This document shows, piece after piece, positions 33,725 through 61,365 of a DNA stretch of 64,000 nucleotides. Every line of letters begins with the position of its first letter. Within the stretch, counting starts at the first letter, position 1. Origin of the DNA: Odiellus spinosus (taxonomy: Eukaryota > Arthropoda > Arachnida > Opiliones > Phalangiidae); the NCBI GenBank assembly GCA_963920705.1, contig OY987232.1, positions 16,430,942-16,494,941 of the forward strand, written 5' to 3'. The position numbers were made by a program, and so were the translations under genes. The notes under the pieces are model-generated. The model did no database searches. It was not told the origin of the DNA and worked only from the letters and a program-made list of their open reading frames with translations.

Positions 33725-36700
33725 CTGAAATATTTTTTAAAAACAAATTAATACATTTAAATGGTAAAGGATGTGTTTTAGTGATTAATTTTCATATCTC
33801 GCGATATTTTCCCATTTTTTCCGCACGGTGGCGCCACTTGTGGGGGTCTATTTTTTAATGCGCCTTACACTAAATTTTCGATTTGTAATACGTTTGTTTT
33901 GGCATTTTCTTGCTAGAAAAACTTGTTTAAAAGTTGGTTCCATGGTTAGGAACTTTTTCCCTTCCATAAGGGTCTTGTTGCGCGCACTCTAACATTGGTT
34001 GGCGCTGGGACGCACGCGTCGTTTGATTTTTCACATTATCGCAATACTGACGTTTGATTTAAGCTTATTATACCGAAAATGACGTTTCAAATTCAAACAG
34101 CAAACTTTAAATATGTTTTGTTACACATTTGAATTGTTCAAATAAGAATTATTACTGACCTTAAGTTTGATGAGCCCGCGGGCTTCTAAGGTGTAACCTC
34201 CTAGTTTTTCTAAAAGATCTCGGCATTGTGGACTAACGTGAATTTTTAGCGCTGAAACGAAAATTAATTGAAATTTAGATATTTTTTATATTTGAAATGA
34301 CGCAGTCGCATTGTTTGTCGAGCCCATTGAGCTTGGAAAAAAAGTGGACTTTTTACAAGGGGTACCCCTTGGATAAAAGTGAATTTTTTCCAAGGGGTAC
34401 CCCTGGTAAAAATGGGAATTTTTTGTAAGGGGTACCCCTTGTAAAAAAGTACTATATATATACTATATACTATAACTGGCTGGCTCAACCGAGCCCGTTG
34501 AGCCGGCTAAACCGAGCCCGTTGAGCCGGCTAAACCGAGCCCGTTGAGCCGGCTAAACCGAGCCCGTTGAGCCGGCTAAACCGAGCCCGTTGAGCCGGCT
34601 AAACCGAGCCCGTTGAGCCGGCTAAACCGAGCCCGTTGAGCCGGCTAAACCGAGCCCGTTGAGCCGGCTAAACCGAGCCCGTTGAGCCGGCTAAACCGAG
34701 CCCGTTGAGCCGGCTAAACCGAGCCCGTTGAGCCGGCTAAACCGAGCCCGTTGAGCCGGCTGGATAATGCCAGGTTATCCAGGTTCTGTACAAACCCTGA
34801 CCCAAGGTTACTTAGAATGTTTAAGCATACTGGTAAGTTCCATTATACAAACCTTCTCCATTACTTTCCATTCTGGATGCAGTATTAACCGTATCCCCGA
34901 AGAGACAATATCGAGGCATGGTCAATCCGACAACACCAGCCACAACTGGACCTAATTTAACAAATTTACACAAGGTTAAATTTCGATTAAAACACGGAAA
35001 ATAATCTCAATAGGGACAGAGATACGTCGAAACGCACCATATAGGGGCAAAAAACGCAGGATATATTGCATAACGAACAAAACCTTGCGTGTCTGGTCTT
35101 AGTTTACTTACCAGTATGCATTCCTATTCGCAACTTCAACGTCTGATCAGGTTTATGTCTGATATGAAAAGTCTTGATGGACTCGAGCAGTTCTATAGCC
35201 ATTGAGGCGATTTCGCTCGCGTGTAGGTCACCATTCTTAGATGGAAGTCCACTGACCACCATATACGCATCCCCAATCGTTTCAACTTTGTACACTTCGT
35301 AATTACGAATAATCGCGTCGAAAACCGTGTACAAGTCGTTAAGAAATGTGACCACCTAAATTTAAGAGATGAAAGGGAACGAATTAGTTTGTACCAATAC
35401 ATTCGGGATAATCCATAAAATCCTCATTGAGTCACGAAGTTTAGTACAGGAAGAAGCCGATAAAACCCTCCTTTGAAGTCTATTACTCCCGGGTCTTGTC
35501 TACCCCTCTCTGTATGGGTTAGTTTCAAAAAGCGCGATTCGTACGCCTCCTAACGGTAGATATTTTCGGAGCGGGAGTTCGTGGAGCCTTGGATTCGTCA
35601 AAAAAACGTCGTATGTGGGGAGAGAGAGTTTCCAATTTTCCGTAGACGGGGGGTGTGAAGTAGGACACCTTCAATCTCCTAAAATTGGGAATTTTACCCA
35701 TACAGAGAGGAGCGCTATATGGAACATTAGAGTAGTAGACTTCAAAGGAGGGTTTCATCGGCTTCTGGTACAGGGGAAAGCTTGCGAAACGCTTTACGCG
35801 AAGTGCTTCGCTAGCCAGACATTCCGTCCGTGAAGATAGTTTCCTTAAAGGTTCTTATGGGCTTCCATAGAAAGCATCATCTTACTTCCATAGGTGTACT
35901 GGAAGCGGACATCTCAGTGAAGCCCACGATATCGCTGAAGTAAATGGTGACAGCGTCAAAAGACTCCGGTTTAACATATTCACCTTTCATCAATTCTTCC
36001 GCCACAGATCTAAAGAAAATTTTAAATTAAAACCAAAGATGGGTAACTGAAATTTTACTACGACTTACTTTGGTAACATACGATGAAGTAAAGCTTCGGT
36101 CTTCTTTTTCTCCTCTTCGAGCTGGGCGGTTCTTTCGTCAACCACTTCTTCCAAATTATGAGAATATTTCTCAAGCATGGCAATCATATTGTCCATTATA
36201 TTTGCTTTCCTACAAATAACCAATCAGATTTATTTATTCAAAGGGCAGATTTAATTTAATTTAAAGGGCAGATTTTAATTCATTTATTTGGTTATTATGA
36301 TTGACCTCTACTATAATATATTGTCATAAGTACCATAGTTATAAATAAGTATGACCCTTTTCATTGTTTCAATGATAAATTTCTTATTCAACGGCGCGTT
36401 TATCATGGTGAAAAATCTGTTATTTTCAATAATAAGAGAGATATTGACTTACATTCCTTCCCTCATTTTGTTCAATCTTTCCCTGACATGTCGAAAATCA
36501 GGTCGAATATCTGGTTTTTCGTGCCAACAATCTTTGATGCATTGTTTAATAAAATCTTGGCAGTCGATACCAGTCAGACATGGCCGAAAGGGATCTTCCC
36601 CTTCCTTCAGATTAGTAACCCTATCAACAATTTCTAAAATAAATAGATATAACAAAATAAGCGAAAAGAAACGAATGACAAATCTAGTTTCCACTTAGCG

Positions 36701-39700
36701 AAAACTATTATATTGTGGAGAGCTCGGAATTCGTATAATTTTTATTAATTGGATAAAATCTATTAGATCCTGATGTATATTATCTGTTTATTTAAAAATA
36801 GACTATTTTTCATTCGAGTTAACTTATTCCAAGATAAAGTAAAAAAACAATCCATATCCGTTTTTATCCAAAAATGGCAACTTATCTTAGAATATTATAG
36901 ACGTTATACGTTCGGATAATAAAATTCAAAATTTATTTTCCGTGAAAAATAACGAATAAAAAGATGATTTAAAATCTTAGTTTCGTTGTTTTATTTATAT
37001 TCTTCGAATTAAAAGTCAATTTGAAATATTTTTCTTATATTTTAGACTAATTCTGGAAACGTGAATGTTTCTTATCCATCGATATACGTTTGAAAACGAG
37101 TAATTTGTAGATAGATAAAGCGCCAAACGCTTATCTTCGGGTAAACCTTATAACAATTATACGAATATACAAATTTCATTGTTTTAGTTTCAAACAATTT
37201 ATCCGAAAATAAAATATCTGAAAATATACGAATAACAGAAGATAATGGATCGATCCGATTCCGAGCTCTATGATTACCTAACCTAAGTTCCTAAAAATCG
37301 TATTTTGTAAAGTATATGACCTAAAGGAATAATCGATGGTCACACCAAATTTATTTAGAGTCAGATTTTACCCTAGGATGACGCTAAGAGATGATGACGT
37401 TAAGCCTAAACCTCAAATTCACTGGTGCGGGATCCATTTCAATTGCCCTTGACTCTAGATACTTTTTAACCATACAGATTGAATTTTTAAATAAGGTCAA
37501 TATATCTATTTTATAACTTGGATATTGGACAAGTTGCTTATTTATAAGGAACCAGAAAAAAAACTTTAGTTGTCTGAGATATGGAAGATATTTATATAAC
37601 CTACCTTTAGCCAGGAGATCCGGTGACCCCCAAGGTCCTTGTCTAGCCATTATTTCGTGCAAAATTATTCCAAAAGCATAAACATCCGCTTTCTGAGTCC
37701 CTGGAGAATTTGTAGGATGTCTCCTAAGTAACTCTGGTGCTTTCCACAAACTTCCTGCAAAAGATAATAGCGTCAAAAGTCGATCATTTTATCCCATAAA
37801 AGTAAACAACACCCCGTAGGTCCGGGTAAATGTACCGGCAGATTCTGATTCGAGACACTCTAGCGGCCGCAGTCGCCGTATAAATAGTCAAATCAGAAGC
37901 GCCACTCTGCGGAGAAATTCATTCCGGAGTTGGAAGGAGGGAAGACAATATAGCCAAGCGCAGCCCGCCTAAATTCCATCCCTCTCTCCTGACTTAAAAG
38001 ATCGAGGAAGAGTCCAAATCACTCGAGCCAGACAGGGGTGATGACTTTTTTAGCTGTTTTTAAATGATGGGCCTTTGCTGATAGTATTAAGCTATGGGGC
38101 GTGGTTTACTTTTATGGAATAAAATGATAACTTTTTCGTAAAGGGAGCTAACAGTACAGAATCTTAGAACGTCACACCCTTCTATCTCTCTCACGTACCC
38201 AGAGGGGATGAGTGGATATAATAGCAATGGATTTGGATATAATACCAATAATTTTACAAGGTTTAAGACAAAAAATCTTATTTTGACGGTGGTCCTTTGA
38301 AGAGGACACTATAGACTGCACATTATATCAAGGAGGATCAGAGAAGGAGAGGAAATGTGGGGCTGCGTTGAGTTAGAGAGAGAAGAGCCAACCTCCCACT
38401 CGGGTGGAAAGGGGGGATAGGAAATTCTCGAGGTAAACTGTTGTCACGTGGTCGCTACCTAGCGCGTCTCATAAAGGATTCGTTTTACCCACGCGACAAC
38501 ATTTTACCACGAAACGTCTCTACCCCCGTTCTCCCAGAGTGGGAGTTTAGGCCGACGCAGTAGGAACCGCGCCGTCCCCACATTTCCTCTCCTTCTCTGA
38601 TCCTCCTTGATTATATCTAGGTTAGGTCTTTTTTTAGTAATACTAGAATCACAAGGGTCGGCCTTGGTATAAGGTTAATGTTTGATTATTTTATTAATGC
38701 AACAAGGAAATTAGAACGGGATATTGAAGCCTTATTAAAATAAATTTCCCGAAAACAACTCGGATATCGATCTGGCTTAATTAATCCACGCCAAGAATCC
38801 CCTAAAGGCTGTTTTTCACTTAATGATCTTAAGAAAGGTGGGAAGCCATTTTTGCAAATTATTAAGTATCAGAAACAACCCAGAGAATCATAAATATCAC
38901 GACCCAAACACGTACCTTAATCGCTCAAAGCTTAACAATATGTCAGAAACCTCATTGTTTTCATTAATTGTCGTATTATCTTACTTACAGTTATACTTAA
39001 TGGAGGGCTGTAAAATTTGAATTCACTTCTTGGACTATGAAAATATAATGTCCAATATACCATTTTAGAAAAGATTAGGGCGGTATGTTTCTATGAAAAG
39101 CTATTTCCAGACTCTAATTTCCGATTTAAATTTAGCTTATTATTTCGTATCAGAAGCCGATGAAACCCTCCTTTGAAGTCTACTACTCCAATGTTCCATA
39201 TAGCGCTCCTCTCTGTATGGGTAAAATTCCCAATTTTACGAGTTAGAAGGGGTCCTACTTCATCCCCCTGTCTACGGAAAATTGGAAATTCTCTCTCTCC
39301 ACAAACGCCGACGTTTTTTGGACGAACTCCAAGGCTGCTAGAGATATTCGCTCGACGAGCTCCCGCTCCGAAAACATCTACCGTTAGGAGGCGTACGGAT
39401 CGCGCCTTTTGAGAATAACCCATACAGAGAGGGGTAGACAAGACCCGGAAGTAATAGACTTCAAAGGAGGGTTTCATCGGCTTCTGTTTCGTATGTATTT
39501 TCAATCTATTAAACTGTCGAAGAAAACCAATTCAAAGTCGTTTAAAACATATGGGAAGCGTATGGCAGAACGTTTTTAGCAAAATATATTCCCTCAGTAT
39601 AATTTTCGATTTAAATTCAGCATAAAATATCGTATCTAGCTTCTATCTTTTAAACTGTCGAGGAAAATAATTTAATTTGAAGGTCGTTTGTTTAATACAA

Positions 39701-42700
39701 ATGGGAAGCGTATGGCAGGCAGATTCTGCTAAACAATAATTCCGGGAGATAGTTTTTGATTTAAATTCTGTATGTTATATCGTATATATTTTCTATCTTT
39801 TAAATTGTCGAAGAAAATGACACAATTTCAGAGAATTTTGTCAAATGCATAAATTTTTCTTGAAAATAAATTCGGAATTTTTCTACACTTTGTGACTTCG
39901 TAATATTACTTCTAGACAAAGGATAAAATTAAAATAAAACTGACCTCTGTAATAGTATTCTTCGTCAGGTTTGACCGGTTCAGCATTCATTCTGATTTCA
40001 TGTAGTCCGAAATCGGCGACTTTCAATACCCATCGACTCGTGATGAGACAATTTGAGGATTTGAGATTACCGTGAATTTTTAAATCACTGTCATGTAAGA
40101 AAATCATTCCCTGCGTAAGAAATAAAACATTTATTGTATTACCACTTGACAACTTGGTGCAGAAATGGGTGCCAAAGGGTAATTTTATAATTTACCTTGA
40201 TGAGATCGAACACGAGTGACGCGATGAACATATTGTCCAACTTGAAATTATCATTTTCAAGAATGAACTACAAAGATTAAATGCCCAAATTTAACAACAG
40301 TAGAAAATAAGAACATTGGTTTCTAACGGCCATTTATTTACTAGACATTTCTAACGGCCAGTACTGGTTCCTAACGGACAGCTCCGTAAGTACTGGTTCC
40401 TAACGGACAGCTCCCTAAGTTCTGGTTCCTAACGGACAGCTCCCTAAGTTCTGGTTCCTAACGGACAGCTCCCTAAGTTCTGGTTCCTAATGGACAGCTC
40501 CCTAAGTTCTGGTTCCTAACGGACAGCTCCCTAAGTTCTGGTTCCTAATGGACAGCTCCCTAAGTTCTGGTTCCTAACGGACAGCTCCCTAAGTTCTGGT
40601 TCCTAATGGACAGCTCCCTAAGTTCTGGTTCCTAACGGACAGCTCCCTAAGTTCTGGCTTCTAACAGACAGCTCCCTAAGTTCTGGCTTCTAACAGACAG
40701 CTCCCTAAGTTCTGGCTCCTAACAGACAGCTCCCTAAGTTCTGGCTCCTAACAGACAGCTCCCTAAGTTCTGGCTCCTAACAGACAGCTCCCTAAGTTTT
40801 GGCTCCTAACAGACAGCTCCCTAAGTTCTGGCTTCTAACAGACAGATCCCTAAGTACTGGCTTCTAACAGACAGCTCCCTAAGTACTGGTTCCTAATGGA
40901 CAGTTACTCTCACCTGTAAACAACCTTTGCCACAATACTCATTGACCAGGTACATTCCGTTAGGTTCCACGCACGCTCCGATGAAAGGATTGACATTGTC
41001 TTGGTGAATTTCTCTCATCTGTAAAAAGCAAGAAATAAAATATTCTGTTATGCAAAATTCAAATATAATTCATTTTGAGAATTACTGGTAAATTACCCGG
41101 AGACGGTAAATTACCGCGCAATTTACCTATTTTCAAAAATAGTATAATTTTGGAACTCTTACACTACAAACTACGGTTCCTCTACCACAATTCCTCCAAG
41201 ATAATATCAAGGACTGTAGGAAACCCGAATCTTATTAAGTGATTTTGACTATCATAGTGTCGCGTTCGCTTTAATTACCATAATTAATTCCTCGTAAAGA
41301 ATAAATTGGATAAAGAAGCTATATTTAGTATCGCGCCCCTCTTAATTTAATAATCTTAAGGGATAGAGGAATATATCTTTAATTAAATTTTACGATCGAC
41401 TATATAGCAGGAACCAATCTTGGAAATAGTAGAATTAAAGGCAATGAAAACCTGTTTTCTGCGGTAAAAGTTACTGTTGCTAAGATTGATTAGTGGTATA
41501 GGCTAAAATACATCCGGGAACTTGATAGCGAGGGTAATTTAATTTGATTGCCTAGTGGCAGTAGGGACGCTTCAAAAACAATTATTTATGGAGGCAATTC
41601 AAGTTATTACTGGAGGCAGATGGCGCCTTCGACAACTCTATGGCTAAATACGTCAGACCCCCTTCGAGTAAACAACACGATGACCATGAACAGAAGCGGA
41701 TGGAAATTATAATTAGTCTATCACGTAAGCCCTTCCCCAACTTTGGTTGTAGCTACCTATTCCTTTTGGTGTCTAGTCACGCGTGTTCATGGTTAAAAAG
41801 AGAGGTACACAGAGCCCCGTATGGCTTACGTGCCAAAATTCTTATATTTTCCATGATATTTTGATAAAAAAATCTCTTACCAGTTTCATTTCTTTCTTAG
41901 TTTCTCTTGGAATGTCTGCAGATTTTCGGTTGAATTGCAAATGTTTGACAGCCACCCAAGTACCTTTGTACATAGCAGTCGTGGCAAAGATTGCTTGCGT
42001 TCCTCCTTTTGATTCCAAAGTCAAGCGACTGGCTAAACTCATCTGAAAGAAATATGGACCAAATATTAATTACTTAGATTACCTTTTTTATGAGTCTTCC
42101 TATTTTCTTCTGGAGTTACCCATTGACTACCGCTATTTCTAACAAACCATCTAGTACAAATCTATTAAAACTAACTTAAGGTATTCATGACAGTATCATG
42201 AATATCTATCTTTCATAATTAATTAACTGAAGATTAAAAAAAAAAAAAATCACTTCATATTTTTTTTGGTCTGACCTTACTAAGGTAGCCGACGATTCCA
42301 TCGGGAACTCCACGCTTCAGATCCTTGATATCGATTTTCCATAATAATCCAGCAATTTCCTGTTCATACTTCCAATTCCTGATAATTTAATCAATTGAAT
42401 ACCATTTATTAATAAGCATAATACCAAAAGTATATAACTTTATTCCATAAAAGTAAACAAGGCCTCGTCCCTAATACAATCAGAAGTAGATGAAACCCTC
42501 CTTTGAAGTCTACTACTCTAATGTTCCATATAGCGCTCCTCTCTGTATGGGTAAAATTACCAATTTTACGAGATCGGAGGGGTCCTACTTCATTCCCCTG
42601 TCTACGGAAAATTGGAAATTCTCTCTCTCCACAAACGACGATGTTTTTTTGACGAACTCCAAGGTTGCTAGAGATATTCGATGGACGAACTCCCGCTCCG

Positions 42701-45700
42701 AAAATATCTACCGTTAGGAGGCGTACGAATCGCGCTTTTTGAAACTAACCCATACAGAGAGGGGTAGACAAGATCCGGGAGTAATAGACTTCAAAGGAGG
42801 GTTTCATCTACTTCTGATACTATCAGCAAAGGTCCAGTTTTACATCTAAGCCAATCACTTAAAAATAGACAAAAAAGTCATCACCCCTGTCTGGTTCGAG
42901 TGATTTGAACTCTTCCTCGATATTTTGAGTCGGGTTATATTGTCTTCCCCCTACTCTGGAATTTCTCCACAGAGTGTCGCTTCCGTTTTCACTATTTACA
43001 CGGCGACTGCGGCCGCTAGAGTGTCTGGAATCAGAATCTGCCGGTACATTTACCCGGACCTTTTCTGATAGTATTACGACACGGGGTGTTGTTTACTTTT
43101 ATAGAATAAAGTGATAGGCTTTTGATAATACTATTTTTTTACTGTGATATTTTTTACCTGTATGTAATGGCGGCGACCAATGAGACTACGACTAGAAGAC
43201 TAGCTAAAACACTCGCTGCTATTTCCCTATTTTGGTCTAAAACAAACGAATTACACTATGAATATATTTTAACGACACAAATTTAATTTGGTTCAATTCA
43301 AACGAATTAATTTAGCCACTTTGAAATTACCAGGTGGGACGTAGCAAGCACTGCCATCGAAACCGCAAGGAGGTTCATCGCAGGGTGGATGTTCTGAAGA
43401 CCATTCCACTTTTTTTTCCAATATAAAGACCTGCGTTGTTAAAACAAATTAAAATTGGACTAAATCTTTAATAGCCCTCCAAAGATACGTCCTACAGTAA
43501 TTGCCCGCCAAAGGAAGTTCCTACAGTAATTGCCCGCCAAAGGAAGTTCCTACAGTAATTGCACGCCAAAGGAAGGTCCTACAGTAATTGCCCGGCAAAG
43601 GAAGGTCCTACAGTAATTGCCCGCCAAAGGAAGGTCCTACAGTAATTGCCCGCCAAAGGAAGGTCCTACAGTAATTGCCCGCCAAAGGAAGGTCCTACAG
43701 TAATTGCCCGCCAAAGGAAGGTCCTACAGTAATTGCCCGCCAAAGGAAGGTCCTACAGTAATTGCCCGCCAAAGGAAGGTCCTACAGTAATTGCCCGCCA
43801 AAGGAAGGTCCTACAGTAATTGCCCGCCAAAGGAAGGTCCTACAGTAATTGCCCGCCAAAGGAAGGTCCTACAGTAATTGCCCGCCAAAGGAAGGTCCTA
43901 CAGTAATTGCCCGCCAAAGGAAGGTCCTACAGTAATTGCCCGCCAAAGGAAGGTCCTACAGTAATTGCCCGCCAAAGGAAGGTCCTACAGTAATTGCCCG
44001 CCAAAGGAAGGTCCTACAGTAATTGCCCGCCAAAGGAAGGTCCTACAGTAATTGCCCGCCAAAGGAAGGTCCTACAGTAATTTCCCGCCAAAGGAAGGTC
44101 CTACAGTAATTGCCCGCCAAAGGAAGGTCCTACAGTAATTGCCCGCCAAAGGAAGGTCCTACAGTAATTGCCCGCCAAAGGAAGGTCCTAAAGTAATTGC
44201 CCGCCATAGGAAGGTCCTACAGTAATTGCCCGCCATAGGAAGGTCCTACAGTAATTGCCCGCCATAGGAAGGTCCTACAGTAATTGCCCGCCATAGGAAG
44301 GTCCTACAGTAATTGCCCGCCATAGGAAGGTCCTACAGTAATTGCCCGCCATAGGAAGGTCCTACAGTAATTGCCCTCCATAGGAAGGTCCTACAGTAAT
44401 TGCCCTCCATAGGAAGGTCCTACAGTAATTGCCCTCCATAGGAAGGTCCTACAGTAATTGCCCTCCATAGGAAGGTCCTACAGTAATTGCCCTCCATAGG
44501 AAGGTCCTACAGTAATTGCCCTCCATAGGAAGGTCCTACAGTAATTGCCCTCCATAGGAAGGTCCTACAGTAATTGCCCTCCATAGGAAGGTCCCACAGT
44601 AATTGCCCGCCAAAGGAAGGTCCTACAGTAATTGCCCGCCAAAGGAAGACCCTACAGTAATTGCCCTCCAAAGTAAGGTCCTACGGTAATTGCCCGCCAT
44701 AGGAAGGTCCTACGGTAATTGCCCGCCAAAGGAAGGTCCTACGGTAATTGCCCTCCAAAGGAAGGTCCTACGGTAATTGCCCGCCAAAGGAAGGTCCTAC
44801 GGTAATTGCCCGCCAAAGGAAGGTCCTACGGTAATTGCCCGCCAAAGGAAGGTCCTACGGTAATTGCCCTCCATAGTTGTTAACAAGATCACAAGTATAA
44901 TTGTTAAAATATGTCCTCCAGTAATTGTCTTGCACAGATTTGAGAAATTTCACAATATTCACCAACACATTGGTGAACATCAGTTGGTCACTTACCGGGT
45001 ATTTGGTAACGTGATCGTAATGAAAGTTTCCAACAGGAACCATACTCTTTCTTAAGCTACCAGTAATCCCTTTGAGAACGATATTGGGATCGAAAGGTAG
45101 AAGAGCCAATACCGTGTAATTGCCTTCAGCATCCCCGTTCTCATCAATGCTCATTTCGGCACCAGTAACGCCTATTCGAAATAAAATAGTTGTACCAGGC
45201 TTACAAGCAACGCCTCCTATATTTTATCAAAAACCAGTGTACGCGGAAAAAGATTCCAAAGCGGGAAACTTAGTTCGCCAGTTTTCCACTATAGAGGCGC
45301 GATTAACATACGATTTTGGAGACGCGTCTCACCCGTTAGCGTGGCAACTCCGTCGGGTTGCTACGGTAACGGGAGATACGAGCCCGCAAAAATCGCTGAG
45401 TGATCCCGCCACCTATCGATAAAAAAAATGGATAATCCTATAAATGGCAAAGTCAGGAGAGTACACTGACTTTGATAAAATATAGGAGGCGCTGTTTCAA
45501 GAGTTAAAGTTACAGTTAATTTAAATGGGAACGTGTGAATTATTAGTTATCTTACTCTTATAGCGTTGTCGCTGGATTATTTCTTGTATAATTGCAGTTC
45601 CGTTTCTTGGATCCATACCATTTTCGAGGATCTTGTTCAAAGCCGTGGCGTAAAGAATAACAGCGTCGTACAAATAAGAAGCATAGATGGTCACGTGCTA

Positions 45701-51700: not shown

Positions 51701-52328
51701 AAAATGGTCACCCTGCGTTATTTTTTTGAACGCAAGTATGATTTGTTTCATTAGCTATAAATTTAACAAAGCTTTGAGCTTGAGGTGGCATTGCATGGAG
51801 ATAATTCTGTTTTAACGGCAAACGGTGTAGGAAAAAGGAAGGAACTATCCATAGTAGCCACGACCGAGGTTTTGTTATAGCAAAAGTATATCAGTTTATT
51901 ACATAAAAGTAAACGCCCATCACTTAAAAATAGACATGAAAGTCATCACCCCTGTCTGGCTCAAGTGATTTGGACTGTTCCTCGATATTTTCGGTCGGGA
52001 GAGAGGGACGGAATTTAGGCGGGCCGTGCTTGACTATACTGTCTTACCTCCCAACTAAGTAATTTCTTCAAAGAGTGTCGCTTCCTCCGTTCACTGTCTC
52101 GAATCAGAATCTGCCTGTATATTTACCCGGACCTTTGCTGATATAATTAAGCTACAGGGCGTTGTTTACTTTTAAGGAATAAAGTGATAAACTTCTGCTA
52201 CTACATTGTCCTAGATTTTGTAAAACAAAATAGATTAAAACAATGGTTCTCACCCGGTCTTCGGTGGGAAATGTTCTGAGAAAAGTTGGGTACAATTCCT
52301 TATTGGAAACTTTGGAATCGGCACATTT
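32750..52328 (-). CDS. Gyc76C: Receptor guanylyl cyclase, Gyc76C-like (21 exons, 5' end missing)
   Basis: Membrane receptor that converts GTP to cGMP when a ligand binds outside the cell. Exons read from high to low coordinate: 52328-52254, 50865-50622, 46796-46650, 46580-46366, 45697-45556, 45171-44996, 43430-43331, 43236-43158, 42378-42276, 42042-41881, 41018-40914, 40267-40196, 40110-39945, 37754-37605, 36633-36453, 36209-36069, 36009-35886, 35355-35112, 34951-34853, 34251-34160, 33724-32750 (TGA). All introns are GT-AG and all phases agree. The exons sum to 3792 nt, or 1263 residues plus stop. The domain order (ANF-receptor, TM, kinase homology, linker, cyclase) identifies the family. The long tail with a C-terminal PDZ-ligand-like motif favours Gyc76C over the other insect receptor cyclases; that assignment is inference. 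The first exons, with the signal peptide and roughly 150-200 residues, are not visible in the remaining 11.7 kb upstream. Confidence 0.95.
34160..36009 (-). CDS. Gyc76C: Cyclase exons 17-20: guanylyl cyclase catalytic domain
   Basis: Contains both metal-binding aspartates (YFSDIVGFT and TIGDAYMVV). The guanine-specifying Glu in [10 protein letters not shown] and Cys in [10 protein letters not shown] are present, as are the catalytic Asn and Arg in NTASRMES. All residues expected of an active, GTP-specific homodimeric cyclase are there. The domain closes with [19 protein letters not shown] and EARGLIKLK. The intron between the last two of these exons contains the 23-bp minisatellite and three GGTACC-centred palindromes. 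Confidence 0.95.
34347..34448. repeat. Three GGTACC-centred palindromes in a cyclase intron
   Basis: Three units about 38 bp apart carry AAGGGGTACCCC, one within TTTACAAGGGGTACCCCTTG. The same palindrome, slightly decayed, sits at the left edge of the large satellite (near 581-612 and 633-662). The TTTACAGGGGGTGTA core of the satellite's minus strand resembles half of it. Confidence 0.75.
34490..34762. repeat. 23-bp minisatellite (about 12 copies)
   Basis: Near-perfect head-to-tail copies with core GTTGAGCCGGCTAAACC. It lies in the cyclase intron between exons 34853-34951 and 34160-34251, and the array ends about 90 bp from the donor of the upstream exon. Confidence 0.95.
35451..35767 (-). 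mobile_element. MITE family E, copy 1
   Basis: Non-autonomous element of about 337 bp when complete, with terminal repeats starting CAGAAGCCGATGAAACCC, here in reverse orientation and slightly shortened. Exact 7-bp target duplication GTACAGG at 35444-35450 and 35768-35774. First terminal base mutated to A. Lies in an intron of the cyclase domain. Confidence 0.9.
36069..36209 (-). CDS. Gyc76C: Cyclase exon 16: dimerisation/linker helix
   Basis: Encodes [20 protein letters not shown] followed by [20 protein letters not shown] and LPK. This is the heptad-patterned signalling helix that joins the kinase-homology and cyclase domains and sets dimer geometry in receptor guanylyl cyclases. Confidence 0.94.
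36453..42378 (-). CDS. Gyc76C: Cyclase exons 9-15: kinase-homology (pseudokinase) domain
   Basis: Begins with [20 protein letters not shown], the conserved start of the regulatory kinase-homology domain. The VAVK lysine motif is present in exon 42042-41881. The catalytic loop reads HGNLKSSNC, so the Asp of a true kinase HRD motif is missing, while the DFG motif is kept (VADFGL). The distal lobe has [20 protein letters not shown] and [12 protein letters not shown]. In this family the domain binds ATP and relays the receptor signal rather than phosphorylating. Exon 41018-40914 ends in GKGCLQ where relatives have a GSLQ-type sequence. Confidence 0.94.
36719..37269 (+). mobile_element. 551-bp inverted-repeat-ended element (AGAGCTCGGAAT family), copy 1
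   Basis: Begins AGAGCTCGGAAT and ends with its complement ATTCCGAGCTCT. Interior A/T-rich with GGATAA/TTATCC motifs. A second copy in the opposite orientation lies at 48554-49068 in another intron of the same gene, and a decayed third at 48208-48448. No clear target duplication. Confidence 0.75.
37774..38137 (-). mobile_element. MITE family B, copy 1
   Basis: Termini of the family read CAAAAGT and continue as long inverted repeats containing CATAAAAGTAAACAACGCCC and CTATCAGCAAAGGTCC. Copy 1 starts only 19 bp upstream of the acceptor of exon 37754-37605, so its end now supplies the branch-point region of that intron. Confidence 0.8.
38329..38609. mobile_element. MITE family F
   Basis: 281-bp foldback element with terminal repeats of about 35 bp starting CAAGGAGGATCAGAGAAGGA. 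Exact 7-bp target duplication ATTATAT (38322-38328 and 38610-38616). Located in the cyclase intron 37755-39944. Confidence 0.88.
39151..39486 (+). mobile_element. MITE family E, copy 2
   Basis: Complete 336-bp copy. The flanking duplication reads as 8 bp (TTTCGTAT, 39143-39150 and 39487-39494), one base longer than the 7 bp of most relatives. In the same cyclase intron as family F. Confidence 0.9.
40330..40906. repeat. 29-bp minisatellite (about 19 copies) beside a splice donor
   Basis: Core GGACAGCTCCCTAAGTTC, with variant blocks TTCCTAACGG, TTCCTAATGG, TTCTAACAG and CTCCTAACAG in runs. The array fills the intron 40268-40913 and reaches to within about 10 bp of the donor of exon 41018-40914. 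Confidence 0.95.
42425..43124 (+). mobile_element. MITE family B, copy 2 (with family E copy 3 nested inside)
   Basis: Exact 7-bp target duplication ATAATAC at 42418-42424 and 43125-43131. The outer element is about 364 bp once the nested E copy (42481-42816) is discounted. Lies in the intron just upstream of the exon that follows the membrane helix. Confidence 0.9.
42481..42816 (+). mobile_element. MITE family E, copy 3 (nested in B)
   Basis: 336 bp, termini CAGAAGTAGATG and its complement (TAG in place of CCG on both ends, so the two ends have been co-converted or this is a subfamily). Flanks ATACAAT/ATACTAT match 6 of 7. Confidence 0.88.
43158..43430 (-). CDS. Gyc76C: Cyclase exons 7-8: juxtamembrane region and transmembrane helix
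   Basis: Exon 43430-43331 encodes [20 protein letters not shown], the PPCGF-type cysteine-bearing juxtamembrane motif of receptor guanylyl cyclases. Exon 43236-43158 encodes a hydrophobic run ([19 protein letters not shown]), the only membrane helix visible, placing the ligand-binding part outside and the catalytic part in the cytosol. Confidence 0.93.
43466..44877. repeat. 29-bp minisatellite (about 48 copies)
   Basis: Core GGTCCTACAGTAATTGCC. Variants are zoned: CGCCAAAGG (43.5-44.2 kb), CGCCATAGG (44.2-44.35), CTCCATAGG (44.37-44.6), then a mixed zone in which ACAGTAAT becomes ACGGTAAT. Fills most of the cyclase intron 43431-44995. Confidence 0.96.
44996..52328 (-). CDS. Gyc76C: Cyclase exons 1-6 of those visible: extracellular ANF-receptor-type domain
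   Basis: The first visible exon begins [20 protein letters not shown], the segment after the first lobe strand of ANF-receptor domains. It is followed by [20 protein letters not shown]. Later exons carry [52 protein letters not shown] and [18 protein letters not shown], all in the order known for natriuretic-peptide-type receptors. Two CC pairs ([14 protein letters not shown]) stand out. N-glycosylation sequons are seen at NFT, NGT and NDT. The introns hold MITEs, one complete opposite-strand gene (47854-49313) and a 1.4-kb minisatellite. Confidence 0.93.
45208..45494. mobile_element. MITE family G
   Basis: 287-bp foldback element with termini CAACGCCTCCTATATTTTAT and the complement of CAGCGCCTCC. 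Flanks TTACAAG (45201-45207) and TTTCAAG (45495-45501) match at 6 of 7 bases. It lies in the intron between cyclase exons 45697-45556 and 45171-44996. Confidence 0.75.
45743..46339 (+). mobile_element. MITE family B, copy 3 (with family E copy 4 nested)
   Basis: Exact 7-bp target duplication ATAATAT at 45736-45742 and 46340-46346. The nested E element splits the right terminal repeat. The outer element ends 27 bp downstream of a cyclase splice donor (exon 46580-46366, gene orientation). Confidence 0.88.
45947..46284 (+). mobile_element. MITE family E, copy 4 (nested in B)
   Basis: 338 bp, complete termini. Inserted into the CTGATAGTATT stretch of the family B terminal repeat; only ATAG is duplicated. 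Confidence 0.88.
46884..47200. mobile_element. MITE family D
   Basis: 317-bp element with about 31-bp terminal repeats starting CAGAAATAGATGAACCGAAA. Exact 7-bp target duplication GTGGTGT (46877-46883 and 47201-47207). Lies in the large cyclase intron 46797-50621. Confidence 0.9.
47284..47566. mobile_element. Possible hAT-like fragment (AATTCCCTGACTTTT repeats)
   Basis: Starts CAGGGTTGCCACAG, a hAT-like terminus, and repeats AAATTCCCTGACTTTT/TTTTTCCCTGACCTTTTC several times, a pattern seen in non-autonomous hAT elements of many animals. The right terminus was not found, so it may be truncated. Confidence 0.4.
47799..47805 (+). promoter_or_regulatory. TATA box of the nested secreted-peptide gene
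   Basis: TATAAAA 49 bp before the ATG. An arthropod-type initiator TCAGTT follows at 47839-47844; its distance from the TATA box (about 42 bp) is somewhat long, so transcription may start nearer 47830. Confidence 0.6.
47854..49313 (+). CDS. Small secreted six-cysteine peptide, two exons, nested in the cyclase intron
   Basis: Exon 1 (47854-47920) encodes 22 residues plus one base and is a signal peptide: short charged start, then [12 protein letters not shown], ending EA. Donor GTAAGT. Exon 2 runs from 49123 (after TATTTGTAG) to the TAA at 49311-49313. The joined product is 85 residues, about 63 after signal removal. Its six cysteines are spaced C-x5-C-x5-C-x16-C-x6-C-x-C, beginning [16 protein letters not shown] and ending [11 protein letters not shown]. 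The final C-x6-C-x-C resembles insect defensins, but the C-x5-C spacing does not fit a CS-alpha-beta fold, where C-x3-C is expected. An EB-like or other disulfide-rich module is possible. TATA box and AATAAA flank it. Function unknown; an extracellular role is inferred. The gene sits entirely inside cyclase intron 46797-50621 on the opposite strand. Confidence 0.85.
47945..48167 (+). mobile_element. MITE family E, copy 5 (internally deleted)
   Basis: 223 bp; both termini intact but about 110 bp of the interior is missing. It lies in the single intron of the secreted-peptide gene, 24 bp after its donor. A remnant of family B (CACTATCAGCAAAGG) follows directly at 48168-48207. Confidence 0.88.
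48208..48448 (-). mobile_element. AGAGCTCGGAAT-family element, decayed copy 3
   Basis: Contains the family's GGATAAGTTGACATTTTC and ATTCCGAGCTCT end, but is shortened, with an internal tandem duplication of TTGGATAAGTTGACATTTTC. Confidence 0.6.
48554..49068 (-). mobile_element. AGAGCTCGGAAT-family element, copy 2 (inverted relative to copy 1)
   Basis: Matches 36719-37269 as its reverse complement along nearly the whole length, including ACCCGAAGATAAGCGTTTGG and GGATAAAAACGGATATGG. The left end is truncated. It ends 55 bp before exon 2 of the secreted-peptide gene. Confidence 0.75.
49338..49343 (+). terminator. Poly(A) signal of the secreted-peptide gene
   Basis: AATAAA 24 bp after the stop codon. 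Confidence 0.7.
49466..49783 (+). mobile_element. MITE family C, copy 1
   Basis: 318-bp foldback element starting CAAGAATCCATTCAGGTTCC and ending with the complement. Left flank GTTTAAA (49459-49465); the matching right flank GTTTAAA is at 50575-50581, displaced because a family E element later inserted directly beside it. Confidence 0.88.
49791..50574 (+). mobile_element. MITE family E, copy 6 (carrying a nested element)
   Basis: Termini as in the other E copies. The interior is split by another transposon at 49921-50373. Flanks GTTTAAT/GTTTAAA differ at one base. With family C copy 1 on its left, this is a three-step nest. Confidence 0.9.
49921..50373. mobile_element. hAT-like non-autonomous element nested in MITE E copy 6
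   Basis: 453 bp with perfect 12-bp termini CAGGGCTCCCAG...CTGGGAGCCCTG. AAATTC is repeated on both sides (hAT elements duplicate 8 bp; two bases appear lost). The interior holds many TATAGGTATTATAGGT repeats, mostly at the ends. Confidence 0.8.
50936..51273 (-). mobile_element. MITE family E, copy 7
   Basis: 338 bp; first base mutated (TAGAAGCC). Lies in cyclase intron 50866-52253. No clear target duplication (ATATTAG-like similarity only). Confidence 0.85.
51310..51715. mobile_element. hAT-like element with ATATAGGA repeats
   Basis: 406 bp between CAAGGTGACCA and TGGTCACCCTG, with dense ATATAGGA/AAATAGGA motifs near both ends. Structurally similar to the nested 49921-50373 element (TATAGG-rich subterminal repeats), although its termini differ. 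No target duplication found. Confidence 0.6.
51881..52197 (+). mobile_element. MITE family B, copy 4
   Basis: Termini CAAAAGTATATCA and the complement-like ACTTCTG. Interior contains AGTCATCACCCCTGTCTGG as in other B copies, with the left arm shortened. It ends 56 bp before cyclase exon 52254-52328. Confidence 0.8.
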
Positions 52329-52398: not shown

Positions 52399-52735
52399 CA
52401 GAAGCCGATGAAACCCTCCTTTGAAGTATACTACTCTAATGTTCAATATAGCGCTCCTCTCTGTATGGGTAAAATTCACAATTTTACGAGATTGGAGGGG
52501 TCCTACTTCATACCCCCTGTCTATGGAAAATTCTAAATTCTCTCTCTCCACAAACGACGACGTTTTTATGACGAACTCCAAGGCTGCTAGAGATATTCGC
52601 TCGACGAACTCCCGCCCCGAAAATATCTACCGTTAGGAGGCGTACGAATCGCGCTTTTTGAAACTAACCCATACAGAGAGTGGTAGACAAGACCAGGGAG
52701 TAATAGACTTCAAAGGAGGGTTTCATCGGCTTCTG
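52399..52735 (+). mobile_element. MITE family E, copy 8
   Basis: 337 bp, exact 7-bp target duplication ATAAGTG (52392-52398 and 52736-52742). Starts 70 bp upstream of the first visible cyclase exon. Confidence 0.92.
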
Positions 52736-52742: not shown

Positions 52743-53720
52743 TTAAATTGATTTCTACTAGTAATATTTTTACTTCAAGACAAGGCCTATTTTCCGGGTA
52801 AGTTTTAAATATATTTCTAGTTTAATATTTGTTCGTAATTTTTTTTACTGGTGGATAATGGCTATTTAAATTATAAAGAAATCTATAAAAAATTAGGCTT
52901 AATTCTCCCTTTCTTCTAAAACAACTTTCCATCGACGCAAAATCAAGATAAATTAAAAACTAATATTTGAAGACCGTCTGTATATTTTGGGTAAACATCG
53001 ACGATGGCGGAAAATTTGGTTTACTTTGCCCTAACACTATTTCCATTTTGCATCTCAAAATAGTCAACACAATCACGGTATTATAGTCACCAGGCCCTGG
53101 TAGTAGCTTAACAAAGTACCGAAAATATAAAGGTCAAACTTTATTGAATTGAGGATAAGGAAACCAATTATTTAACCGGAAATTACAATTTAATATACAG
53201 AAAGTAAAGCTTAATACTATCAGTAAAGGCACAGGTAAATCATGCTTCAAGTCTACAACCGGGCATATAACGAATGAACTGAAGGTCTGAGAGTTGTGTC
53301 GTCACAACTTTCGCGCGGGGAGAGAGGAAAAATCTCAAAATTGTAAAACGGCCGAGAAACAGAAGTCGAAATTGCCCTCTCTAGCGGTTAAGGTAGGAAC
53401 TAAGTAGGCGGTGCTAATTATTTTGCCTTCGTTGAAGTTCGTTCGCGACTTCGCGCGTCGTTTGTAGAATCGTTAAGGGGGGGTAGGAAATGTAACTAAG
53501 AAACTCGGCTTTCCCCTCTCTCTCGCGAAACGAAAGAGGCCCTCGCCGGTGCGTCGCGAGTTCAAGTTTGATTTACTCTACCAGCAATACTGGGCCATAC
53601 CGCTCTTCTGTAGAAATTTGGAATACTTAGGGTGGAATCATTGACTGAGGAAATCGGACCTTCATCATTGTAACCCGTAGTATGTCGTCTTGTAGACTTG
53701 GGGATGATTTACTTGTGGTA
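52743..53720. other. Non-coding stretch with repeat remnants
   Basis: No exon of the cyclase or any other gene was recognised on either strand. A family B remnant (ACTATCAGTAAAGG) lies near 53217. The next stretch, 53231-53343, recurs inverted and diverged at 59574-59667 (shared AGGTAAATCATGCTTCAAG and GGGGAGAGAGGAAA), so it belongs to another dispersed repeat. Confidence 0.5.
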
Positions 53721-54859: not shown

Positions 54860-55195
54860 CAGAAGCCGATGAAACCCTCCTTTGAAGTCTATTACTCCCG
54901 GGTCTTGTCTACCCCTCTCTGTATGGGTTATTCTCAAAAGGCGCGATTCGTACGCCTCCTAACGGTAGATGTTTTCGGAGGGGGAGTTCGTCGAGCGAAT
55001 ATCTCTAGCAGCCTTGGAGTTCGTCCAAAAACGTCGTCGTTTGTGGAGAGAGAGAATTTCCAATTTTCCGTAGACAGGGGGTATGAAGTAGGACCCCTCC
55101 GATCTCGTAAAATTGGGAATTTTACCCATACATAGAGGAGCGCTATATGAAACATTGGAGTAGTAGACTTCAAAGGAGGGTTTCATCGGCTTCTG
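54860..55195 (-). mobile_element. MITE family E, copy 9
   Basis: 336 bp; flanks GTATTGT/GTATTAT match 6 of 7 bases. Confidence 0.9.
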
Positions 55196-55423: not shown

Positions 55424-55740
55424 CAAGAATCCATTCAGGTTCCATAAGAATATGGGAGCATAGCTTTAGCCTCTGGTACCATCCTCCCAAACTTTGTAAC
55501 AAAAGTTCGTCCGCAATTTTCGCAACATTTGTACGCTTAGATCTTTTTTCGGTCGGCTCCATTTTTATTACCCAAAATATTATGTCAAGGTCGTTAGTGG
55601 CGCGGGTTAATAATATAATGTCAGGAGCGATTCACTTGAAAAATCGATTCGAAGCGGACGAACTTTTGCTACAAAGTTTGGGAGGATGGTTATTGAATCG
55701 CGGCCCTCCCATATTCTTATGGAACTTGAATGAATTCTTG
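55424..55740 (-). mobile_element. MITE family C, copy 2
   Basis: 317 bp, inverted relative to copy 1. Exact 7-bp target duplication GCGCTAC (55417-55423 and 55741-55747). Confidence 0.92.
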
Positions 55741-56375: not shown

Positions 56376-56958
56376 ACACGCGTACGATATTTCTCGGGCA
56401 AATTCGAGACGCGTACGATGTCTGTCGAGCAAACTTCGAGACGCGTACGACGTCGCTCGGGCAAACTTCGAGACGCGTACGACGTCGCTCGGGCAAACTT
56501 CGAGACGCGTACGACGTCGCTCGGGCAAACTTCGAGACGCGTACGACGTCGCTCGGGCAACCTTCGAGACGCGTACGACGTCGCTCGGGCAAACTTCGAG
56601 ACGCGTACGACGTCGCTCGGGCAAACTTCGAGACGCGTACGACGTCGCTCGGGCAAACTTCGAGACGCGTACGACGTCGCTCGGGCAAACTTCGAGACGC
56701 GTACGACGTCGCTCGGGCAAACTTCGAGACGCGTACGACGTCGCTCGGGCAAACTTCGAGACGCGTACGACGTCGCTCGGGCAAATTCGAGACGCGTACG
56801 ACGTCGCTCGGGCAAATTCGAGACGCGTACGACGTCGCTCGGGCAAATTCGAGACGCGTACTACGTCGCTCGGGCAAATTCGAGACGCGTACGACGTCGC
56901 TCGGGCAAATTCGAGACGCGTACGACGTCGCTCGGGCAAATTCGAGACGCGTACGACA
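56376..56958. repeat. CpG-rich 32/31-bp minisatellite (about 18 copies)
   Basis: Core CGACGTCGCTCGGGCAA followed by CTTCGAGACGCGTA. The first dozen units are 32 bp, the last six 31 bp (one base fewer in CAAATTCGAG). Each unit has about six CpGs, in sharp contrast to the A/T-rich surroundings. Several frames on both strands are open because the unit lacks stops; no start, splice site or domain supports a protein. Confidence 0.95.
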
Positions 56959-57111
56959 GATATTCTAATACCTAACTAAATCATAATGACATCAATTTTA
57001 CATAATCATACAAACTGTTGCATTATAATGTTTTTTACATTTGAGGAATTTTCGCGTTGATAGATGTCACCACGTTCGCTGCCTACGTCTTTATGTAAAG
57101 ATTAAAGTAGA

Positions 57112-57134: not shown

Positions 57135-57669
57135 GGTGAAATTTATGAACTCGCGTGGTTATCTAGGTGTCGAGTATATATATATTCTCTCGCAACTATA
57201 ATAAACGAACGAGCTAGCTTTTTTAAAAACACGAAATGGAACGATAACGAATCGATGGTTACCATAAAGCGACTACGGGGAACAGAGGTCAATCGACAAG
57301 GAATATTAACCCGTCGTGCAATCTTATCTTTCATAGCGAGTTAATACATATATCAATCGTTATATTATTTGTAAACGATTTTTAACAACTAGAAATTTTC
57401 GTCACCCAGATTCATTTCCAACTTTCCAAGAGATATTTGGAAAGTTCTAGTTACAGGAACTTGCGTTCGAAGGGGGGATTCATGTTTTCATGATGTCAAA
57501 TCTTTTTTGATTCCATTTTTTTTCGGCAATTCACAAGGTATACACTCTGTGGGACTAGAAATCTTTCGGTAAATTTTGTGAAAGATATGGGAATGCTGAA
57601 AAATTTCATTTTGTATAGTTAAGAATAATAAATCTATATTATAACGGTGTTTTACGCGTAAACTCTAAG

Positions 57670-57873
57670 ATGTCGCCACAATACGAGACCCGTCTGGCCT
57701 ACAGCTTGCCCACCCGCTTCCGCGAGAGGCGGGATACTGTGGAAAGACTTGAGTTCAGAAGACTGGGAAATAAAACAATCCTTACCCCCAGAAAAACTAA
57801 CACACATATTATGAAAATCAGCGCCATCTCTTGTTTTTTCATCGTACTAAATAACACTTTACTACCGCCTTAA
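57670..57873 (+). other. Short open frame of uncertain status (67 codons)
   Basis: Begins with an ATG, and the first 35 codons are less A/T-rich than the surroundings (MSPQYETRLAYSLPTRFRER), but the rest is low quality and ends in a stretch that matches a dispersed repeat. No domain, signal peptide or splice partner was recognised. It could be a relic of a transposon or a 5' exon; most likely it is not a gene. Confidence 0.15.
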
Positions 57874-58167
57874 ACGTTGCCACAGCGAATTTAAGGATTG
57901 TTTAGTGGTTTTTTATGGTCTGGGTCATTCATACCAAAATTATGGGCGATCTTCTATAAAGAAAACCTATTTCTTTTAAATATATTTAGTTTAGCAGCCA
58001 ATGGTTCCTTTAACTTGTATTGAGGATAGCCGCATACACACTGAACCCCAATGTCGAAAGATTGATTTCGTCTACCCCAAGATGTCACTTGATTTTGACC
58101 GATATTCTTCTTCGTACAAAGATACAGGGTGTTTTTTGTTTTCAGTACGTCTGGCAATTAATAATCT

Positions 58168-58505
58168 CAGAAGCCGATGAAACCCTCCTTTGAAGTCTAT
58201 TACTCCCTGGTCTTGTCTACCCCTCTCTGTATGGGTTAGTTTCAAAAAGCGCGATTCGTACGCCTCCTAACGGTAGATATTGTCGGAGCGGGAGTTCGTC
58301 GAGCGAATATCTCTAGCAGCCTTGGAGTTCGTCAAAAAAACGTCGTCGTTTGTGGAGAGAGAGAATTTCCAATTTTCCGTAGACAGGGGGGTATGAAGTA
58401 GGACCCCTCCGATCTCGTAAAATTGGGAATTTTACCCATACAGAGAGGAGCGCTATATGGAACATTAGAGAAGTAGACTTCAAAGGAGGGTTTCATCTAC
58501 TTCTG
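58168..58505 (-). mobile_element. MITE family E, copy 10
   Basis: 338 bp, exact 7-bp target duplication ATAATCT (58161-58167 and 58506-58512). The right terminus has the TAG subfamily base change (CTACTTCTG) while the left has the common GCC form. Confidence 0.92.
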
Positions 58506-58512
58506 ATAATCT

Positions 58513-59965: not shown

Positions 59966-60646
59966 TAACTTAATACTATCAGCAAAGGCCCGGGTAAATG
60001 TTCCGGCAGATTCTGATTCGAGACACTCTAGCGGCCGCAGTCGCCATGAAAATAGTGAAATCGGAAGCGCCACTCTGCGGAGAAATTCCGAAGTTGGGAG
60101 GGAAGACAATATAGCCAAGCGCGGCCCGCCTAAATTCAATCCCTCTCTCCCGACTCAAAATATCGAGGAAGAGTTCAAAGCACTAAAGCCAGACAGGGGT
60201 GATGACTGTCTATTTTTAAGTGGACTAAAACTGGGCCTTTGCTGATAGTATTAAGCTATGGGGCGTTGTTTTCTTTTATCAGAAGCCGATGAAACCCTCC
60301 TTTGAAGTCTATTACTCCCGGGTCTTGTCTACCCCTCTCTGTATGGGTTAGTTTCAAAAAGCGCGATTCGTACGCCTCCTAACGATAGATATTTTCGGAG
60401 CGGGAGTTCGTCGAGCGAATATCTCTAGCAGCCTTGGAGTTCGTCATAAAAACGTCGTCGTTTGTGGAAAGAGAGAATTTCCAATTTTCTGTAGACAGGG
60501 GGGTATGAAGTAGGACCCCTCCGATCTCGTAAAATCGTGAATTTTACCCATACAGAGAGGAGCGCTATATCGAACATTGGAGTAGTAGACTTCAAAGGAG
60601 GGTTTTATCGGCTTCTGCTTTTATGGGATGAAGTGATAGACTTTTG
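59966..60646 (-). mobile_element. MITE family B, left-truncated copy (with family E copy 11 nested)
   Basis: The outer terminal repeat is missing on the left, where the match begins at CTTAATACTATCAGC. The right end is complete (GATAGACTTTTG). The nested E element is at 60280-60617. Confidence 0.8.
60280..60617 (-). mobile_element. MITE family E, copy 11 (nested in B)
   Basis: 338 bp, exact 7-bp target duplication CTTTTAT (60273-60279 and 60618-60624) made inside family B sequence. Confidence 0.93.
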
Positions 60647-61028
60647 GTATGATTTACTGGAAACATAAGATCCTAATTTGTACATTCTCAGGATTTATTT
60701 ATTAGTTCTTGGACATATTGCGACACCGTTTTATCCCCTGATAAATCGAGAGCGGGGCTGCGTAGAGAGATAGTGCGGTAATGCCATGATCTTCTAAATC
60801 ACTTCGACGATGGATCGTCAATTAACCCCTCCCCGCTAAATCAACAAATCATTACACACCACGGTTAAAGCGAAGTACACACGAGATGATTCATCACTCA
60901 ATTTTGTCAGTTGTCTCCTATTTAAACTAGAGATTCATGCTAACTACGCAAGAACCTTAATCTCAATAAGGGAAAGGAAAACCGCAAGAACAAAATGCTC
61001 ATTAGCGTCGTCTACCTACAAACAAATG

Positions 61029-61365
61029 CAGAAGTAGATGAAACCCTCCTTTGAAGTCTACTACTCTAATGTTCGATATAGCGCTCCTCTCTGTATGGGT
61101 AAAATTCACAATTTTACGAGATCGGAGGTGTCCTACTTCATACCCCCCTGTCTACGGAAAATTGGAAATTCTCTCTCTCCACAAACGACGACGTTTTTTT
61201 GACGAACTCCTAGGCTGCTAGAGATATTCGCTGGACGAACTCGCGCTCCGAAAATATCTACCGTTAGGAGGCGTACGAATCGCGCTTTTTGAAACTAACC
61301 CATACAGAGAGGGGTAGACAAGACCCGGGAGTAAGAGACTTCAAAGGAGGGTTCATCGGCTTCTG
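61029..61365 (+). mobile_element. MITE family E, copy 12
   Basis: 337 bp. The left terminus is of the TAG subfamily and the right of the GGC form, the mirror image of copy 10. No target duplication is visible. Confidence 0.88.

Follow-up and report, generated by a model that had tools for sequence, protein, structure and literature searches.

Several families of short inverted repeat elements lie at one locus of Odiellus spinosus, in a 64,000-nucleotide stretch of DNA (the window), and the question they raise is whether one transposase system mobilized them all and whether that system belongs to a described superfamily. The initial annotation reported six unrelated MITE families with CA...TG termini and 7-bp target-site duplications (TSDs), and proposed that a single, possibly undescribed, transposase system may have moved them. 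These families (E, B, C, D, F and G) do exist where it placed them, and a seventh, H, which was absent from its list, is recognized here (Table 1). All seven consist of short elements with terminal inverted repeats (TIRs) that start with CA and end with TG, and no genes were detected within the elements. The elements occupy a probable receptor gene and its surroundings.

Termini and target-site duplications

CA...TG termini can be read directly from the sequence in all seven families, as had been claimed for six of them, although single ends of E1, E7 and B1 deviate; the boundary of B1 is uncertain because its right end is degraded. The TIRs extend over 38 bp in E, 35 bp in C, 34 bp in both F and B, 31 bp in D, 24 bp in G and 14 bp in H, and are perfect in D1 and F1, 96% identical in G1 and 93% identical in H1. 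Thus, five of the seven families (B, C, D, E and F) have TIRs of 31-38 bp, whereas those of G and H fall below the 30-50 bp of P-superfamily elements other than Galileo. A second inverted repeat is present in E8 (+59 to +83, 84%), C1 (+51-87, 37 nt, 97%) and F1 (+62 to +92, 77%). None was found at +51 to +92 in B, D, G or H, which counts against a P-type reading. THAP-like sites have the consensus TNNGGG; its occurrence in the second inverted repeat, scored post hoc, gave P values of 0.015 for E, 0.14 for C and 0.43 for F, and was accordingly set aside as evidence.

The families are not all unrelated, since E and D share termini. One variant, CAGAAGTAGATGAA, accounts for 4 of the 24 E ends and matches D at 12/14 positions after CA; for the commonest E end the figure is 10/14. 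It could be argued that the likeness extends to every family, as the pairwise mean of TIR identity across families is 4.5/14 against 3.7 expected (P 0.017). With D removed, however, the mean falls to 4.1 against 3.6 (P 0.11); a TIR consensus common to all families was therefore rejected and only the E/D relation was kept. Apart from this pair, the TIRs are not significantly alike.

An exact 7-bp duplication flanks 10 of the 22 scored elements, and a further five match at 6/7, giving 15 of 22 at 6/7 or better; the respective expectations, obtained by shuffling right flanks among the 22 elements, are 0.54 and 1.22. Exact repeats of 4 bp occur in two elements (0.40 in the shuffles) and of 8 bp in one (0.05), with none of the 22 showing 5, 6, 9 or 10 bp. 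A duplication at 7/7 or 6/7 flanks one or more elements in each family, that of G being, as previously described, 6/7 only. The nine exact duplications listed in the initial annotation (E1, E8, E10, E11, B2, B3, C2, D1 and F1) are all present, and the GTTTAAA of C1 is found on the left and, with E6 set aside, on the right. A universal 7-bp duplication was not observed, however: seven of the 22 elements lack one, comprising E2 with 8 bp, E4 and E7 with 4 bp, and E5, E12, B1 and B4 with none. The mixed lengths that were named at the outset as arguing against the proposal are thus present to a slight extent, but a 7/8-bp mixture is also reported for Galileo. E4 has an alternative reading, with a TSD of CTGATAG, if one CTG was lost.

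Table 1. Elements of the seven families, and the nested element I1, with positions in the window
Element	Family	Position	TSD	Remarks
E1	E	35451..35767	GTACAGG	5' end AA
E2	E	39151..39486	TTTCGTAT	8 bp, exact
E3	E	42481..42816	ATACAAT/ATACTAT	6/7; inside B2
E4	E	45947..46284	ATAG	net duplication 4 bp; inside B3
E5	E	47945..48167	none	shorter (223 bp); adjoins B remnant
E6	E	49790..50574	GTTTAAT/GTTTAAA	within C1 target duplication; contains I1
E7	E	50936..51273	ATAT	repeat of 4 bp only; 5' end TA
E8	E	52399..52735	ATAAGTG	TIR 38 nt (95%)
E9	E	54860..55195	GTATTGT/GTATTAT	6/7
E10	E	58168..58505	ATAATCT	
E11	E	60280..60617	CTTTTAT	inside B copy
E12	E	61029..61365	none	
B1	B	37774..38138	none	right end degraded
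B2	B	42425..43124	ATAATAC	hosts E3
B3	B	45743..46339	ATAATAT	hosts E4
B4	B	51881..52197	none	
C1	C	49466..49782	GTTTAAA	split by E6
C2	C	55424..55740	GCGCTAC	
D1	D	46884..47200	GTGGTGT	ends related to E
F1	F	38329..38609	ATTATAT	
G1	G	45208..45494	TTACAAG/TTTCAAG	6/7
H1	H	53230..53717	GTAAAGG	exact; in B-like sequence
I1		49921-50373	6 bp	CA...TG ends; nested in E6

The 7-bp pattern also emerges when neither families nor end sequences are presupposed. A scan of the masked interval 31.6-64 kb for TIRs matching at 11/12 or better, a span of 100-1000 and an exact flanking repeat returned, at 7 bp, six CA-ended pairs against one pair with any other ends, situated at 32.4 kb in an AT-rich region of low complexity. 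The scan recovered 6/10 of the exact 7-bp cases, missing E1, E10, B2 and B3 because it disallowed the mismatches in their TIRs.

Empty-site alignments were run for 13 insertions, of which five were informative. E3 and E11 fit best at 7, E4 (aligned to another B copy) at 4 and I1, whose empty site is intact E sequence, at 6. For E2, whose empty site is a neighbouring degenerate repeat, the score is 91 at 8 compared with 86 at 7 and 88 at 9, and the junction at 8 is without a gap. The other eight were uninformative. For E5, E6, E7, E12, B4 and C2 there was either no copy spanning both flanks or a flat, low profile (E6 scored 80 at every length; C2 scored 54 at 1 and 6 and 50 at 7), and the peak of E9 at 9 (66 versus 57 at 7) derives from an alignment covering the right flank only. 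The score of H1 climbs to a length of 12 (99 versus 79 at 7), but its empty site speaks neither for nor against 7 because the closest B copy differs by insertions or deletions nearby; the 7-bp assignment of H1 is based on the exact flanking repeat.

Target palindrome and order of insertion

The 15 sites with 7-bp TSDs, which are not fully independent because C1 and E6 share one target, reveal a preference for the palindrome RTANTAY. T at position 2 together with A at position 6 scores 23/30 against 9.4 expected, and the match to the published Galileo motif GTANTAC scores 48/90 against 24.4; neither value was reached in 20,000 random draws. The T2 and A6 score of 23 is obtained in the TSD frame, the 24 other frame offsets giving 4-17, and T occupies position 2 in 7/7 E sites and in 7/8 non-E sites. 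A longer motif of the 1360/P group, ANA-GTTNAAC-TNT, is matched at 62/150 against 43.2 (P 0.0009) with the TSD part included, its outer columns looking weak. Two features of the target count against a P-type reading: the ANA/TNT motif appears faint in the outer flanks, and positions 1 and 7 are R and Y, not G and C as in GTANTAC and GTTNAAC.

The nesting of elements is directly visible, and the location of E copies inside B copies suggests that amplification occurred in waves. A common integration mode is supported by the modal TSD length, palindromic target and CA...TG ends that the families have alike, and to this extent the proposal of one transposase system is supported. A single transposase for all of them is, however, doubtful, because TIRs outside the E/D pair are not significantly alike and E is nested in B. 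The transposases that moved the families over time were probably related rather than identical.

Candidate transposition systems

CA...TG termini fit the 1360/Galileo type of the P superfamily, and they also fit hAT elements, whose TIRs are usually shorter than 31-38 bp. The ends, duplications and target lead us to infer a superfamily, a transposase and the sites that it would bind: all seven families are likely to be nonautonomous, MITE-type P-superfamily elements of the 1360/Galileo kind. They would move by cut-and-paste through a transposase encoded elsewhere, which in this superfamily would have THAP, GTP-binding and RNase H-like domains and would bind the terminal region, probably the TIR and, in some families, the subterminal repeat as well. 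The enzyme would excise the CA...TG element and insert it, with a stagger of 7 bp, into a loose palindrome, RTANTAY; gap repair would then yield a duplication of 7 bp, occasionally 8. Mobilization probably proceeded in successive waves, through related transposases that differ in the TIRs they recognize, and E and D may share one of them. Another reading, to which we give a low probability, is that a transposase lineage not belonging to any described superfamily, or a P-type one with unusually many TIR specificities, kept to a single 7-bp palindromic chemistry of integration and mobilized, in one genome, at least seven MITE families with distinct TIRs.

It could be argued that these are instead hAT-superfamily MITEs whose transposase makes a stagger of 7 bp in place of the usual 8. 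The ends would suit, hobo and other hAT elements have targets with T second and A second-last (hobo GTNCGNAC, also NTNNNNAN), as found here, and the 8-bp duplication of E2, TTTCGTAT, fits NTNNNNAN. As this T/A pattern occurs in both groups, it is mainly duplication length that separates P-type from hAT, and here the mode is 7 bp with 8 bp in 1/22 elements, whereas the hobo duplication is given as 8 bp in 1,196/1,198 insertions. With the TIRs of five families also exceeding the usual hAT length, the hAT explanation is unlikely. Dada elements make TSDs of 6-7 bp, but those with definable ends target multicopy small RNA genes, and Dada-U6 and Dada-U1 are without the terminal inverted repeats that the elements here possess; no Rfam match at gathering score was obtained in 31.6-64 kb and ARAGORN found no tRNA in the window, leaving Dada with a negligible probability. 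MULEs were rejected, since the Tm1 report (PMC3169594) gives TSDs of 8-10 bp, mostly 9, against 1/22 at 8 and none at 9 or 10 in our set.

An undescribed 7-bp superfamily that mobilized all families would accord with the finding that none of 20 ORFs scanned with Pfam (from 108 listed in the window; at least seven of the 20 are host-gene exons) contained a transposase domain. This negative result also weighs against the P-type reading, as do the seven elements without a 7-bp duplication and the three informative empty sites that fit best at other lengths. Exact probes of 23-25 bases point the same way: the E TIR had no match in viral or prokaryote contigs, and the C TIR, B interior and D TIR had none in viral contigs. 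A comparison of C1 with phage records likewise gave no match. These absences weigh little because such collections are unlikely to contain the host. An undescribed transposase is, moreover, unneeded, because 7-bp TSDs at targets resembling GTANTAC and GTTNAAC are published for Galileo and 1360, from which the 7/8 mixture and the palindrome are already known; this part of the initial proposal thus appears quite improbable. A further view assigns the families to different superfamilies and regards the pattern as partly coincidence or selected examples. It draws on the 7/22 elements without a 7-bp pattern and on I1, which has CA...TG ends and a 6-bp duplication, but it must accommodate the 7/7 or 6/7 duplications in each of seven families and the T at position 2 in E and non-E sites alike, and we judge it highly improbable.

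Comparison with 1360, Galileo and other elements

The likely assignment to the P superfamily would extend a pattern, 7-bp duplication at a palindromic target, that in the literature consulted is described for Drosophila 1360 and Galileo. If true, the presence of such families in another genome would make the 7-bp branch of the superfamily broader; among the papers listed by searches for 7-bp TSDs, none was seen to report P-type MITEs with such duplications outside Drosophila. Duplication length and target palindrome can suggest the superfamily of a MITE without its transposase, and the window supplies TIR sequences usable for fetching that enzyme. Apart from these points, the families represent ordinary transposon biology.

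Similar to the locus described here, Anopheles gambiae contains several P-MITE families in one genome, derived from different P subfamilies, and its AgaP elements have TIRs of 27-31 bp; the Anopheles P-MITEs differ, however, in their 8-bp TSDs. The P-element itself makes 8 bp in 1,207/1,226 cases. The root-knot nematode report on Tm1 also mentions uncharacterized nested inverted-repeat elements, 936 and 923 bp long, with 7-bp duplications.

The closest parallels lie in Drosophila. 1360 (Hoppel), of the P superfamily, has a modal TSD of 7 bp in 274/279 sites and a palindromic target; this target is GTTNAAC compared with RTANTAY here, and the likeness noted is one of TSD and target. Galileo (including the subfamilies Newton and Kepler) likewise makes 7-bp TSDs, with three copies at 8 bp, at the consensus GTATTAC/GTANTAC, and like the families here consists of several subfamilies with the same duplication. 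In contrast, its TIRs span 0.5-1.2 kb rather than 14-38 bp, and the terminal 40 bp are near-identical between the subfamilies of D. buzzatii, whereas the TIRs here mostly differ by family. On the sharing of transposase between subfamilies the published Galileo evidence cuts both ways: their common TSD consensus and near-identical terminal 40 bp suggested a common transposase, but in vitro the THAP domain of the G subfamily proved unable to bind the TIR of the N subfamily. The Galileo THAP footprint extends from +63 to +80, and the second inverted repeats of E, C and F overlap this position.

Duplication lengths and target preference

Flanking sequences were tabulated after family ends had been located, and 22 elements from seven short-transposon (MITE) families were scored (E 12, B 4, C 2 and D, F, G and H one each), omitting I1, which lies inside the sixth E copy (E6), and B fragments without both ends, such as that with its right end at 60646. 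A 7-bp target-site duplication (TSD) was exact in 10 of the 22 and matched at six of seven positions in a further five, against expectations, on shuffling the right flank, of 0.54 exact and 1.22 with at least six matches. The others comprised one exact 8-bp duplication (E2), two of 4 bp (E4 and E7) and four elements with no duplication. At other lengths (k) there were two exact matches at k=4 (shuffled 0.40), one at k=8 (0.05) and zero elsewhere, and a scan at k=7 without preset families or ends recovered six CA-ended terminal inverted repeat (TIR) pairs compared with one for all other ends. Thus, the 7-bp rule proposed in the initial annotation, whose nine quoted duplication sequences are all correct, is real but not universal. 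H1, from a family absent from that annotation's list, is an independent case; it begins CACAGG, ends TTGTG, has a 14-bp TIR (93%) and is flanked by an exact duplication of GTAAAGG.

Target preference was analysed at the 15 sites with 7-bp duplications, excluding E2, E4, E5, E7, E12, B1 and B4 (7/22). T occupies position 2 in 14 sites and A position 6 in nine, the symmetrised motif being RTANTAY; the two positions together score 23/30, against an expectation of 9.4 drawn from 28,295 positions in this DNA, for a motif spotted before its test. The literature-derived Galileo motif GTANTAC scores 48/90 (24.4 expected) and the 1360/P-group motif 62/150 (43.2 expected). C1 and E6 are not fully independent sites, as one GTTTAAA target is common to both.

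Nested elements and order of insertion

Because elements are nested, pre-insertion sites could be read from other copies of the host element; 13 elements were tried, of which five were informative. The best k was 7 for E3 (score 121; 114 at both 6 and 8) and E11 (106; 101 at 6, 103 at 8), and 8 for E2 (91 versus 86 and 88). For E4 it was 4 (116 versus 111 and 109), which could reflect either a 4-bp event or a 7-bp duplication, CTGATAG, minus one of two adjacent CTG units. I1 peaked at k=6 (167 versus 160 and 162), and intact E sequence agrees with its 6-bp TSD, AAATTC; this element, whose TIR is CAGGGCTCCCAG and whose interior holds many TATAGG motifs, is a different transposon system that also has CA...TG ends. 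Among the eight uninformative tests, H1 and E9 peaked at k other than 7, but E9 could be aligned over its right flank alone, and the B copy nearest to H1 has insertions or deletions close to the site.

E3, E4 and E11 lie inside B copies, and B is therefore older than E; by the same reasoning C1, then E6, then I1 inserted at one locus. Flank reading suggests that H1 and C2 lie in B-like sequence. The ends, TIRs, TSDs, target motif and nesting are read directly from the DNA; what we infer is the enzyme, together with the sites that it binds. In this scheme the elements would be moved by cut-and-paste by a P-type transposase whose gene lies elsewhere, with joining staggered by 7 bp into a palindromic AT-rich site.

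Genomic setting

All results draw on the 64 kb of the window, whose G+C content is 34%, and on the literature. The minus-strand exons look like a receptor guanylyl cyclase gene, and the transposons appear to sit within its introns and beyond.

Features of the window and their positions
Feature	Position	Observations
Interleaved tandem arrays	1-31500 (~31 kb)	Several frames open; repeating FTGGVFII / NLNQSQPIST readings
Putative guanylyl cyclase exons, minus strand	~35-51 kb	Pfam: one guanylate-cyclase match above cut-off; five kinase-type, one above; ANF-receptor below
Inverted repeat pair	36921-37250 / 48563-48892	330 nt, 93% complementary; separate repeat family; GAGCTC near ends (by eye)
Minisatellite (limits by eye)	40331-40920	29 bp; apparently in a cyclase intron
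Minisatellite (limits by eye)	43480-44880	29 bp; apparently in a cyclase intron
Putative small secreted-type protein, plus strand (by eye)	about 47854-47920 and 49122-49314	Inside receptor gene region; perhaps two exons, the intron holding E5 and other repeats
I1	49921-50373	
Possible I1 relative	51310 to about 51716	Ends CAAGGTGACCA / TGGTCACCCTG (right end by eye); ATATAGG motifs inside; duplication not clear
H1	53230-53717	
Minisatellite (limits by eye)	56380-56970	31-32 bp
Minisatellite (limits by eye)	61860-63080	23 bp

Relatedness and comparison with known transposons

The initial annotation was mostly right in its observations, although its six unrelated families are better described as mostly distinct. 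Blastn comparisons that used one or two copies of each family yielded, E-with-E apart, short matches only (the top being 17 bp between F and H, E value 0.007), and TIR similarity between families was not significant with D excluded (P 0.11). An E variant, however, is identical to D at 12 of the 14 positions after CA, such a maximum occurring in 0.04% of 5,000 shuffles, and the commonest E end at 10 of 14 (1.2%).

The suggestion of a possibly undescribed transposase system is not supported, because this combination of features is already published for P-superfamily transposons of the 1360/Galileo branch. The families carry that signature and are probable members of the superfamily, proof of which would need the transposase. 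Published TSDs are 7 bp in 274/279 insertions of 1360 (target GTTNAAC) and 8 bp in 1,207/1,226 of P-element and 1,196/1,198 of the hAT element hobo (Linheiro and Bergman, PMC3276498); the comparison with Dada drew on PMC3706591. Galileo has 7-bp TSDs in Drosophila buzzatii (GTAGTAC; PMC2775673) and D. willistoni (consensus GTATTAC, three copies with 8 bp; PMC4168063), whereas Anopheles P-MITEs have 8-bp TSDs (PMC1562414), in contrast with the mostly 7 bp seen here. TIRs are 31-38 bp in five families and shorter in two; those of the P superfamily, Galileo aside, are given as 30-50 bp (PMC3688188).

Whether one transposase mobilized all the families can be weighed against Galileo. The D. buzzatii subfamilies agree in consensus and are almost identical over their terminal 40 bp, which is taken to suggest the same transposase (PMC2775673). 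In the THAP-footprint study, however, the N-subfamily TIR was not bound by the G-subfamily THAP domain, which argues against a single enzyme for TIR-distinct families. A second inverted repeat within +51 to +92, absent from the other four of the seven families, is present in E, C and F (complementarity 84%, 97% and 77%), in the same zone as the reported Galileo THAP footprint (+63 to +80).
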